A stretch of DNA of 18,606 nt from Treponema sp. (lineage in GTDB: Bacteria > Spirochaetota > Spirochaetia > Treponematales > Treponemataceae): positions 1 through 18,606 of the forward strand of contig DLYJ01000155.1 of assembly GCA_003447785.1 (NCBI GenBank), given 5' to 3'. Position numbers and translations under genes: made by a program. Positions within the stretch are counted from its first letter, which is position 1. Every line of letters begins with the position of its first letter. The notes beneath the pieces are model-generated. The model had not been told where the DNA came from, did not search any database, and was given only the letters and a program-made list of their open reading frames with translations. Of this stretch, positions 12,832-14,722 are shown piece after piece.

Positions 12832-13383
12832 ATGAGCAATAATAACAACCTTGTTCCTGGTTTTAACGATGAAAAAGATGACAGCCTCAAAATCAATCTG
12901 GAAAAAATCTCAGAAGTTGAGAACTGTCTTACAATTTATTTGAATGGTTACATCGATACCTATAACTCAAGTTTCTTCCAGAAGAGAATTTCTAAGGTTG
13001 TAGAAGCCGGATATAAAAACCTTATATTCAACTGCGCATCGCTTAACTATGTATCATCAACTGGTATCGGTTCTTTTACCGCATTCCTTAAAATGGTAAA
13101 GCCAAAGGGAGGAGACATTGTTCTTCTCGAAATCCAGCCAAAGGTATACGAAGTATTCCAGCTGCTTGGATTCAGCCAGTTCTTTAATATCAAGGATTCA
13201 ATGTCAGACGCTGTTAACTTCTTTAAGCAGGGCGCTCCTGTTACAGAAAGCGTATTCCCTAAAGTGTTCAGCTGTCCTGTATGTTCTAAACGCCTTAAGG
13301 CTTCAAGAAGCGGACGTTTCCGCTGCTCTGAATGTAAATCAATCCTTGCCATCGACCAGCAGGGTCAGGTTTTCCTGGGCTAA
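12832..13383 (+). CDS. STAS-domain (anti-anti-sigma-like) protein with C-terminal zinc ribbon
   Basis: This 183-residue protein carries an acidic N-terminal tail (1-20), a STAS domain (about 28-133) and a four-cysteine zinc ribbon (148-168). The STAS core has VENCLTIYLNGYIDTYNSSFF and the phospho-site region LNYVSSTGIGSF, where Ser76 aligns with the serine phosphorylated by anti-sigma kinases in SpoIIAA/RsbV; the usual preceding Asp is Ser75. The ribbon is CPVC...CSEC (Cys148, 151, 165, 168). STAS antagonists normally bind an anti-sigma factor; no kinase or sigma gene is nearby. The zinc ribbon could bind nucleic acid or another protein. Strong Shine-Dalgarno, consensus -35 and a strong terminator point to an abundant single-gene transcript. 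Confidence 0.9.
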   Translation: MSNNNNLVPGFNDEKDDSLKINLEKISEVENCLTIYLNGYIDTYNSSFFQKRISKVVEAGYKNLIFNCASLNYVSSTGIGSFTAFLKMVKPKGGDIVLLEIQPKVYEVFQLLGFSQFFNIKDSMSDAVNFFKQGAPVTESVFPKVFSCPVCSKRLKASRSGRFRCSECKSILAIDQQGQVFLG

Positions 13384-13390
13384 AATCAAC

Positions 13391-13419
13391 GCTCCGTTGC
13401 TAAAACGGAGCTTTTTTTT
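13391..13419 (+). terminator. Intrinsic terminator after the STAS gene
   Basis: GCTCCGTT (13391-13398) pairs perfectly with AACGGAGC (13404-13411) around a 5-nt loop, followed by eight T residues (13412-13419). It starts 7 nt after the stop codon and isolates the downstream AT-rich region from read-through. Confidence 0.95.
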
Positions 13420-13422
13420 GCC

Positions 13423-13455
13423 TGTGCCTAACTTGTGGATAACTTGTTTCTAACT
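13423..13455 (-). repeat. Left array of three 11-bp DnaA-box-like repeats
   Basis: Three contiguous units read on the plus strand: TGTGCCTAACT (13423-13433), TGTGGATAACT (13434-13444) and TGTTTCTAACT (13445-13455). All share TGT-N3-TAACT. The middle one contains the perfect consensus box in minus orientation; the first matches it at 7 of 9 positions and the third at 6 of 9. Confidence 0.7.
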
Positions 13456-13468
13456 GCCTGTATAGGCA
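13455..13468. repeat. Short palindrome next to the left array
   Basis: TGCCT-GTAT-AGGCA has perfect 5-bp arms around 4 nt and abuts the last 11-bp unit. It has no T-run after it, so it is a possible protein-binding site rather than a terminator. Confidence 0.4.
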
Positions 13469-13521
13469 AAAATACTAGTCAAAACGCTAATTCTATCTAA
13501 TATAATAAGTTAAGTTGAATT

Positions 13522-13550
13522 TTGTTATATTTAGCCTAAATCTATATAAT
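13522..13550 (+). promoter_or_regulatory. Promoter inside the AT-rich core
   Basis: TTGTTA (13522-13527) and a perfect TATAAT (13545-13550) are exactly 17 bp apart. Transcription would start near 13557, giving a leader of about 165 nt before the membrane-protein gene at 13721 and running through the right DnaA-box array, or a small untranslated RNA. AT-rich sequence yields chance -10 boxes, so confidence is moderate. Confidence 0.5.
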
Positions 13551-13648
13551 ACAAGGAAATATTTAATTTTTAAGGCCAAAAAAACTTATAATTTCTTTTA
13601 ATATTGTGAGTTAGAAATGCCGAAAATTTAGAAACTAACGAAAGTTTG

Positions 13649-13681
13649 TGTTGACAACCTGTGGATAACTTGTGATTAGAA
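13649..13681 (-). repeat. Right array of three 11-bp DnaA-box-like repeats
   Basis: Units on the plus strand are TGTTGACAACC (13649-13659), TGTGGATAACT (13660-13670) and TGTGATTAGAA (13671-13681). The middle contains the perfect box; the others match it at 7 of 9 and 6 of 9. The phase of 11 bp equals that of the left array. A TTGACA (13651-13656) overlaps the first unit. Confidence 0.55.
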
Positions 13682-13720: not shown

Positions 13721-14722
13721 ATGATGAAAAACGCTTTAACAATGTTTATGTATTTTTTCCTCATGACTGCCTGTGGAACTCTTGCCGCCGCATTCATCTT
13801 TATGATCTGCTGCAATCTGACCCTGCTGGTTTGTGGAGAAAGTTTTGCCTTTTTTAATTGGGATTTTTATATCAGGGGACTTTTGATTTCGCTCCCCCTG
13901 GTTTGTGTCATTGTTCTGGCGTTGATGATTGTCTATGGTTTGCGCCATAAAAAAAATCCGGTTATCAGACTCGCTGTTTATGTTGTTTCTGGACTGATTG
14001 TCTGGCTGATTCTGATTCCTTCAAGTTTTACCCTGTTACACAAATATGAAGAAAAGTACGCAAAAACTTATGAAGTTCCATTTTTGTCTCCGGGCTTTTT
14101 CAGGCCGGAGTCGGGCGGAGTTTTTTATTTTTCCCGGGTTCAGGAAGATGGCAAGGCTGACGGTCTGTACATCGATTTAACCGGAATTACGGGCGAGAAG
14201 GGAAGTGTTGTCCGATTCTCAAATTCAATAATCGACGCTGATTTTTCGGGACAGTTTGCAGATTCAATTATCCGTGATGCCGTTAAGCTTCCTTTTGTGA
14301 TTTTAGCCCCGCTGGAATTATATTCAGTTCTGCGGGACAAGGCACAGGCCGCCTGGAATGATTCCTTTGCCCACTGGCTTTTGTTTTTATGCCTTGCACT
14401 TGCCCTTGGTTCCTGCATTGCCTTTGAAAACTTCAGCGCATGGAGTCTGATTGACGCTCTCGCAGCCTTTTTTACGGGACTTCTGGTTTGTGTTGTAAAC
14501 TGGGCGTATTACAAGGGCTATCTGTTCAGTTCGGTTACCGGCAAATGGAATGAACTGATTGTGGATACTCCCGTGACAGGCGGATTCTTTAATTCAATCA
14601 TACATTCACCTGACTTATTTATAAACTTTGTCAATTTTATAATTTTTGCACTTCTTACACTGACAGGAATTTTACTTTTTATCTTTAAAAGTAAAACAGA
14701 AACGGAGGACGAACTGGTATGA
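13721..14722 (+). CDS. Polytopic membrane protein of unknown function, 333 aa
   Basis: I do not recognise the family. There are six probable membrane helices: about 7-37, 51-73, 83-105, then 218-235, 243-265 and 303-322. By the positive-inside rule (GLRHKKNPVIR between helices 2 and 3; FKSKTET at the end) the 106-217 segment faces the periplasm; it looks beta-rich (GGVFYFSRVQEDGKADGLYIDLTGI). The 3+3 topology around a periplasmic domain resembles LptF/LptG, but no sequence motif of that family was seen. ATG 13721 or 13724 starts the protein; a TTG at 13688 is rejected because it overlaps the promoter. The stop codon overlaps the next gene's ATG (ATGA), so the two products are probably made together and may form one complex. 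Confidence 0.8.
   Translation: MMKNALTMFMYFFLMTACGTLAAAFIFMICCNLTLLVCGESFAFFNWDFYIRGLLISLPLVCVIVLALMIVYGLRHKKNPVIRLAVYVVSGLIVWLILIPSSFTLLHKYEEKYAKTYEVPFLSPGFFRPESGGVFYFSRVQEDGKADGLYIDLTGITGEKGSVVRFSNSIIDADFSGQFADSIIRDAVKLPFVILAPLELYSVLRDKAQAAWNDSFAHWLLFLCLALALGSCIAFENFSAWSLIDALAAFFTGLLVCVVNWAYYKGYLFSSVTGKWNELIVDTPVTGGFFNSIIHSPDLFINFVNFIIFALLTLTGILLFIFKSKTETEDELV

Follow-up and report, generated by a model that had tools for sequence, protein, structure and literature searches.

A palindrome-centred DnaA-box module in Treponema as a candidate extra-origin site for control of replication initiation

Two arrays of DnaA boxes that flank A+T-rich DNA in a Treponema genome raise the question of whether such a locus is a chromosomal origin or a site of another kind through which replication is controlled. 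The locus lies towards the right of the window, i.e. the whole stretch of 18,606 nucleotides that was analysed. The original prediction named it as a candidate origin and, as a fallback, as a DnaA-titrating or replication-coupled regulatory site.

Anatomy of the element and its central palindrome

The two exact TTATCCACA boxes of the element, at 13434–13442 and 13660–13668, share one orientation (minus strand) and are 226 bp apart, as had been predicted; of 200 dinucleotide-shuffled versions of the window, just one had at least two exact copies (mean 0.14). Each perfect box forms the middle of three contiguous 11-bp units, giving a left array at 13423–13453 and a right array at 13649–13679 (both on the minus strand) with unit matches of 7/9, 9/9 and 6/9. 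The flanking units, which match TGTGGATAA at 7/9 positions on the left and 6/9 on the right, bear out the predicted grouping by three in both arrays, and both arrays are kept in relatives. The DNA between them (13454–13648) is non-coding and reaches 76 % A+T, compared with 56 % window-wide, in agreement with its earlier description as very AT-rich. On the left, an intrinsic terminator with an 8-pair stem (13391–13411, plus strand) is followed directly by T8, and this strong terminator, which had also been anticipated, insulates the left side of the element. Counting boxes per genome and per cluster, as the original prediction proposed, yielded 12 exact boxes in the organism's own draft genome (267 contigs, 75 % complete), where the element is the sole pair less than 500 bp apart.

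Both neighbouring genes are carried on the plus strand. The left neighbour (12832–13383), which ends ahead of the terminator, encodes a STAS-domain protein (PF01740) with a C-terminal, zinc-ribbon-like CxxC...CxxC tail that gives a weak PF12760 match, below cut-off; the module does not require the STAS gene. The right neighbour (13721–14722) encodes a membrane protein without a Pfam match.

The feature that turned out to be the most informative was absent from the original prediction. Alignment of the regions exposed a 25-bp palindrome with the consensus TAATTCnTTGTAWTACAAnGAATTA, the main copy of which (13537–13561, score 24.9) lies with its centre 111 bp from that of the left box and 115 bp from that of the right box. 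A second copy (13488–13512, score 16.8) has its centre 62 bp from the left box centre, while a third, weak copy (13589–13613, score 11.2) is centred 63 bp from the right one. The scoring matrix was trained on 43 regions picked for having boxes; 40 of these score above 14, compared with a 99th percentile of 11.7 among shuffled regions.

The palindrome is not confined to the module. A search of 16 genomes with two mismatches allowed found 0–21 copies per genome, compared with 0–3 for the reversed control. Of the 34 places examined, 28 were intergenic (between mechanically called open reading frames), and a palindrome scoring above 10 directly follows dnaA in 16 of 26 dnaA loci. The genes beside these copies are diverse by Pfam, and include those for sigma factors (two genomes), HSP20, a LacI regulator, an ArsR/MarR-type regulator, a ParA-like protein (own genome), an integrase, a RelE-like protein and metabolic functions; comparison of these flanking genes gave no single candidate for the putative palindrome-binding protein, here called protein X. 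Since the palindrome is present at other genomic sites, protein X may be a general regulator, and the spread of its candidate sites suggests that it is probably a broader DNA-binding protein.

Several of these copies deserve separate mention. An alternative sigma-70 gene is preceded by the palindrome in genomes of two families (L229:2362 and L236:2007), and judging from this placement protein X may regulate a sigma factor. In the organism's own genome, one of the top two palindromes is located approximately 360 bp upstream of a gene encoding a ParA-like ATPase (contig C231, L222:1501-2657). In T. socranskii (G061), a near-identical variant, TAAGTC...GACTTA, is found at several places and is possibly carried by a repeated element.

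Conservation, helical geometry and neighbouring genes

Conservation was assessed beside the STAS gene in the best 80 of 438 STAS relatives (L089–L168, near-identical strains included), of which 9 were excluded for having less than 500 bp downstream, leaving 71 testable Treponema loci. A pair was defined as co-oriented boxes 165–300 bp apart and no more than 600 bp downstream of the STAS gene. Such a pair is present in 42 of the 71 testable loci and absent from 29, and was found in 2 of 2009 control windows of 600 bp elsewhere in the same loci. The pair together with a centred palindrome occurs in 38 of the 71, compared with 0 of 2009 control windows; the palindrome rate in the 71 loci is partly circular because 43 of these regions served to train the matrix, while the control windows, the order-level genomes and the oriC loci lie outside the training set. 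As the species are related, none of these locus counts are independent. The boxes are almost all co-oriented, and the whole arrangement is inverted in L129, L133, L134, L143 and L144.

The 11-bp phase is likewise retained. Among 107 boxes of relatives, a match of at least 6/9 is found at +11 in 57 % and at −11 in 43 %, while the remaining offsets, tested to 30 in each direction, give 0–16 %, the highest being +22 (16 %) and −21 (13 %), near multiples of the phase. Conservation of the boxes and of their phase in related genomes, which the original prediction had put forward as a check, was therefore found. In 20 additional loci (15 belonging to other families of the order and five to the same genus) the pair is present in 16 and missing from L270, L277, L279 and L281. 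Thirteen of the 16 pairs sit 1.2 to 2.2 kb from the STAS gene; a palindrome scoring above 12 accompanies the pair in nine of the 16 loci, and no palindrome above that score was found in the remaining seven.

The 29 testable loci without a pair at the STAS gene, which include the T. ruminis group, indicate that the element is dispensable or replaceable in some lineages. A modified version of the composite pattern described below, with shorter gaps, revealed no relocated palindrome-bearing copy in T. ruminis, so that some lineages may do without the element; nor did it reveal a relocated module in four of five other genomes, with one weak match, in G012. Separately, one T. ruminis genome (G060) carries two co-oriented TTTTCCACA boxes, 182 bp apart, at 2,730,325–2,730,515, where no palindrome match was found. 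This pair, at 2.730 Mb, is a possible relocated remnant of the element.

The palindrome and the boxes stand in fixed register. Removal of modules more than 80 % alike over their central 120 bp reduced the set from 108 to 98. In these non-redundant modules, palindrome and box centres are separated by distances that cluster at about 97, 108, 119 and 130 bp on the left and at about 93, 104, 115 and 126 bp on the right. Taking the nearest box on either side gives, for a period of 11 bp, a Rayleigh z of 22.2 on the left and 40.9 on the right. When each 50 %-identity cluster is represented by a single module (n=69), the values are 21.6 and 29.0, in an analysis that took from multi-box arrays the box nearest 107 bp and therefore favours concentration, which the nearest-box analysis of the 98 modules does not. 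Any period between 10.5 and 11.5 bp gives a similar fit, and the shared ancestry of the species makes nominal p-values for the phasing unreliable. Resultant lengths for modules at oriC are 0.76 (left) and 0.93 (right), compared with maxima of 0.67 and 0.62 in 5000 jittered controls; those for ectopic modules are 0.43 and 0.52, compared with 0.30 and 0.29. The geometry of the module is fixed to the DNA helix.

The position of the element between two genes invites another explanation, namely that it is a promoter or operator through which DnaA and protein X couple the next gene, that of the membrane protein (13721–14722), to replication. The right array lies just upstream of this gene, and in the window a promoter-like site overlaps the main palindrome; the predominantly intergenic location of the palindrome, upstream of sigma-factor genes in two families, would also suit such a role. 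In Borrelia burgdorferi, according to an excerpt of PMC9879097, DnaA binds upstream of several other genes, and the search for the borrelial DnaA box is still under way. However, a DnaA-regulated promoter would be inherited with the gene it regulates, and here the neighbours vary. The inverted module of L129 adjoins a NUDIX gene, that of G273 lies between acetyltransferase and M18 peptidase genes, and in G058 and G009, neither of which has a module at the STAS gene, it lies by an aminotransferase gene and a TPR-protein gene, respectively. The membrane-protein gene was not found beside the module in some other relatives, and it is kept in the T. ruminis group without the element, mostly about 80–160 bp from the STAS gene. 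These differing neighbours argue against a simple promoter, which would moreover need neither the two-sided symmetry nor the phase shared with oriC, and coupling of the next gene is considered unlikely. As judged from gene order, the ectopic copy is independent of its neighbouring genes.

GC skew and the twin module at oriC

If the element were the chromosomal oriC of its source organism, it would be expected at a replichore boundary, marked by a switch in GC skew. It does combine a DnaA-box cluster with adjacent A+T-rich DNA, as origins do, and since the organism's genome is incomplete and no dnaA was found in it, its own origin locus is not visible. In four relatives with one-contig chromosomes, however, the skew switches at dnaA, 260–473 kb from the element. 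In G045, dnaA is near base 1 and the element at 260 kb, with positive skew on both sides of it. In T. parvum, where dnaA is also near base 1, the element (2.259 of 2.626 Mb) is surrounded by negative skew; the skew is near zero and locally slightly positive at 2.31–2.59 Mb, and the clear switch is at dnaA. The skew of G080 is weak; it is positive after dnaA, and every 20-kb mean sampled ahead of dnaA is negative, those to either side of the element (3.508 of 3.856 Mb) included. In G085, which belongs to the same genus, the skew is negative in two samples 75–105 kb before dnaA and positive after it, and six 10-kb samples surrounding the element at 474 kb range from 0.001 to 0.045. In a fifth relative, no lasting reversal accompanies the element within the first 400 kb of a 409.7-kb contig (G004:C2), nor is there a reversal at the element in the window, where skew is positive on both sides. 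The skew of G264 is too weak to inform on the position of the switch.

The origin reading was accordingly rejected, there being no skew switch at the element in five relatives and a switch at dnaA in four of them; that the element is the chromosomal oriC is very improbable. Of the two outcomes named in advance as refuting the original prediction, a skew minimum elsewhere came true, as judged in relatives, and a lack of conservation did not.

The element nevertheless has a counterpart at the origin. The strict composite pattern (box, 82–112 bp, palindrome core, 82–112 bp, box, in a single orientation), which was shaped on loci already seen, some from genomes later searched, matched 76 of 390 genomes of the order, and the reversed-pattern control matched none in any genome. 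For the other 314 genomes the result refers to the strict pattern, not to absence of the module. In a draw of 198 genomes from the phylum the composite was found in ten, nine of 25 within the order and one of 173 outside it. Among the matches listed, 12 of 30 composite loci lie immediately upstream of dnaA, with gyrB across from the module in six of the 12, and 18 of the 30 are STAS-linked (G045 and G186 included). Copies at both the STAS gene and dnaA are present in G045, G080, G115, G157, G175, G264 and G366, and an eighth genome with two copies, G058, carries one beside dnaA and one at another, non-STAS place. The oriC and ectopic modules (15 and 81, respectively, the dnaA–dnaN modules L078 and L085 being excluded) agree in phase modulo 11, with 9.0 versus 8.9 on the left and 5.5 versus 5.0 on the right, and their arms are A+T-rich to a similar degree. 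They differ in an inverted repeat, TGTAT-N8-ATACA, which with at most two mismatches occurs in 27 of 81 ectopic left arms, compared with 14.5 % in mononucleotide shuffles, and in one of 15 oriC left arms. In the window, a tentative candidate with one mismatch lies at 13459–13476, and the repeat is also seen in ectopic left arms of other families, e.g. L302, L303, L310, L337 and L354. This near-palindrome is suggestive only of a possible further site.

The same module upstream of dnaA, with arms that are A+T-rich in both copies, could also indicate a secondary or dormant origin built from the module of oriC and used under special conditions. Against this stand the GC skew, which in five genomes does not reverse at the element, and the distribution of parS-like sites. 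With up to two mismatches, such sites were found in 0 of 40 pair-bearing ectopic regions, compared with 6 to 16 per 20 kb in five dnaA/gyrA regions of the genus; control windows gave 7 of 1081. With up to three mismatches they were present at the element in 4 of 40 regions and in 110 of 1081 controls, i.e. not above background. A dormant origin is thus regarded as improbable. Even less can be said for the element being what is left of the origin of an integrated plasmid or phage. In the T. ruminis chromosome (L221, 1,367,300), a RepA-like plasmid replication gene has beside it a palindrome with an exact DnaA box approximately 107 bp away, and such pairs therefore do occur near plasmid-type replicons. 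The syntenic place of the element across families, together with the copy at oriC, and the Pfam-scanned flanking genes in the window, which are not replication genes, make this origin of the element highly improbable.

The parS-like sites also drew attention to the origins of the genus themselves. A 1.5-kb non-coding region that follows gyrA in T. berlinense (L228:6826-7738) holds two DnaA boxes separated by 128 bp, two palindromes, one of which is midway between the boxes (63 and 65 bp), and five parS-like sites. It is the likelier origin in this species, and would be an oriC that has shifted to the gyrA side. ParS-like sites and DnaA boxes also cluster after gyrA in L282, L284–L286, L290 and L292–L294, of the same genus, which suggests that the origin has moved out of the dnaA–gyrB gap in several of its genomes.

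In one-contig genomes the element is separated from dnaA by about 5–17 % of the chromosome, taken the shorter way (G048, 5.2 %; G045, 8.0 %; G264, 8.7 %; G080, 9.1 %; G177, about 9.5 %; T. parvum, 14.0 %; G391, about 14.6 %; G085, 16.9 %). An ori-proximal position would suit timing by gene dosage. It was set aside as evidence of a datA-like site because the STAS gene of T. ruminis, which lacks the element, is similarly close to dnaA (about 15 %).

Comparison with known systems and a proposed role

DnaA boxes outside the origin have precedents in other bacteria. As described in excerpts of PMC4585315 and PMC5295017, datA of E. coli contains five DnaA boxes and an IHF site, lowers DnaA-ATP and holds a conserved relative place among E. 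coli strains, while DARS1 and DARS2 act in the opposite direction; DARS2 also requires IHF and Fis sites (PMC4585315, likewise in excerpt). The Treponema element resembles datA, so far as these excerpts describe it, in being a non-coding cluster of several DnaA boxes outside oriC, at a conserved place (the 29 STAS loci without a pair apart). It may also have a site for an architectural protein, the candidate being the phased central palindrome, for which the binding protein is putative and need not be IHF. Unlike datA, the element consists of two symmetric phased arrays around a 25-bp palindrome, and its module recurs at oriC; the likeness is one of architecture, not of sequence comparison. 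With DARS1 and DARS2, as they appear in the same excerpts, it shares DnaA boxes outside the origin.

In B. subtilis, the excerpt of PMC5295017 reports, citing Okumura 2012, that removal of all six DnaA-box clusters leads to early initiation, which is partially relieved when one cluster is put back; that review judges the role of the clusters to be minor. Like these clusters, as far as the excerpt goes, the element has DnaA boxes outside oriC, away from the skew switch. Unlike them, it occupies at most one ectopic place per genome besides the oriC copy, among the matches listed, and has a central palindrome. The oriC of B. burgdorferi, which the excerpt of PMC9879097 places between dnaA and dnaN, is likewise intergenic DNA bound by DnaA (binding being putative for the element), but the element is far from dnaA and off the skew switch. 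By analogy, the element most likely works like datA, DARS or the B. subtilis clusters; it is not classed as any of these because they are defined by activities and the element by sequence alone.

The anatomy of the module agrees with that of a site where DnaA assembles on a scaffold provided by a second protein. The DnaA of T. berlinense keeps, near its C-terminus, a GRDHTT motif, which presumably reads the DnaA box. In the proposed mechanism, DnaA would load directionally on both phased arrays, while protein X would bind the central palindrome and bend or bridge the DNA, a role equivalent to that of IHF at datA. Both arrays, presented on defined helical faces, would then join in one complex, which after the fork has copied the locus may sequester DnaA or alter its ATP state and would, on this model, delay re-initiation.

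The fallback of the original prediction, a DnaA-titrating or replication-coupled site, gains support at the level of sequence from the conserved boxes, phase and spacing, the architecture shared with oriC and the independence from neighbouring genes. On balance, with confidence that is somewhat more than even and well short of firm, the element is interpreted as an extra-origin DnaA-assembly module that helps to control initiation at oriC, and it is probably a control site that helps to set the time at which replication starts. A more specific and rather doubtful version of this is that the oriC module and its ectopic twin compete, or pair physically, via DnaA and a new palindrome-binding protein, thereby controlling initiation. 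Handcuffing is known from plasmids, and pairing of the twins would, with the same small likelihood, be its chromosomal analogue.

The timing of replication in spirochaetes is mostly obscure, and extra-origin control of DnaA is known mainly from E. coli and partly from B. subtilis. The literature searched, consisting of abstract openings with few subscription journals, contained no report of an extra-origin DnaA control site in Treponema. A module that is present in several families, with a fixed helical geometry and a twin at oriC, offers a defined object to test, for which natural absences and relocations provide built-in controls, while the palindrome, as a candidate binding site, points to a replication factor. 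If the interpretation is true, the strategy of datA and of the DnaA-box clusters would exist beyond E. coli and B. subtilis, with a different architectural protein.
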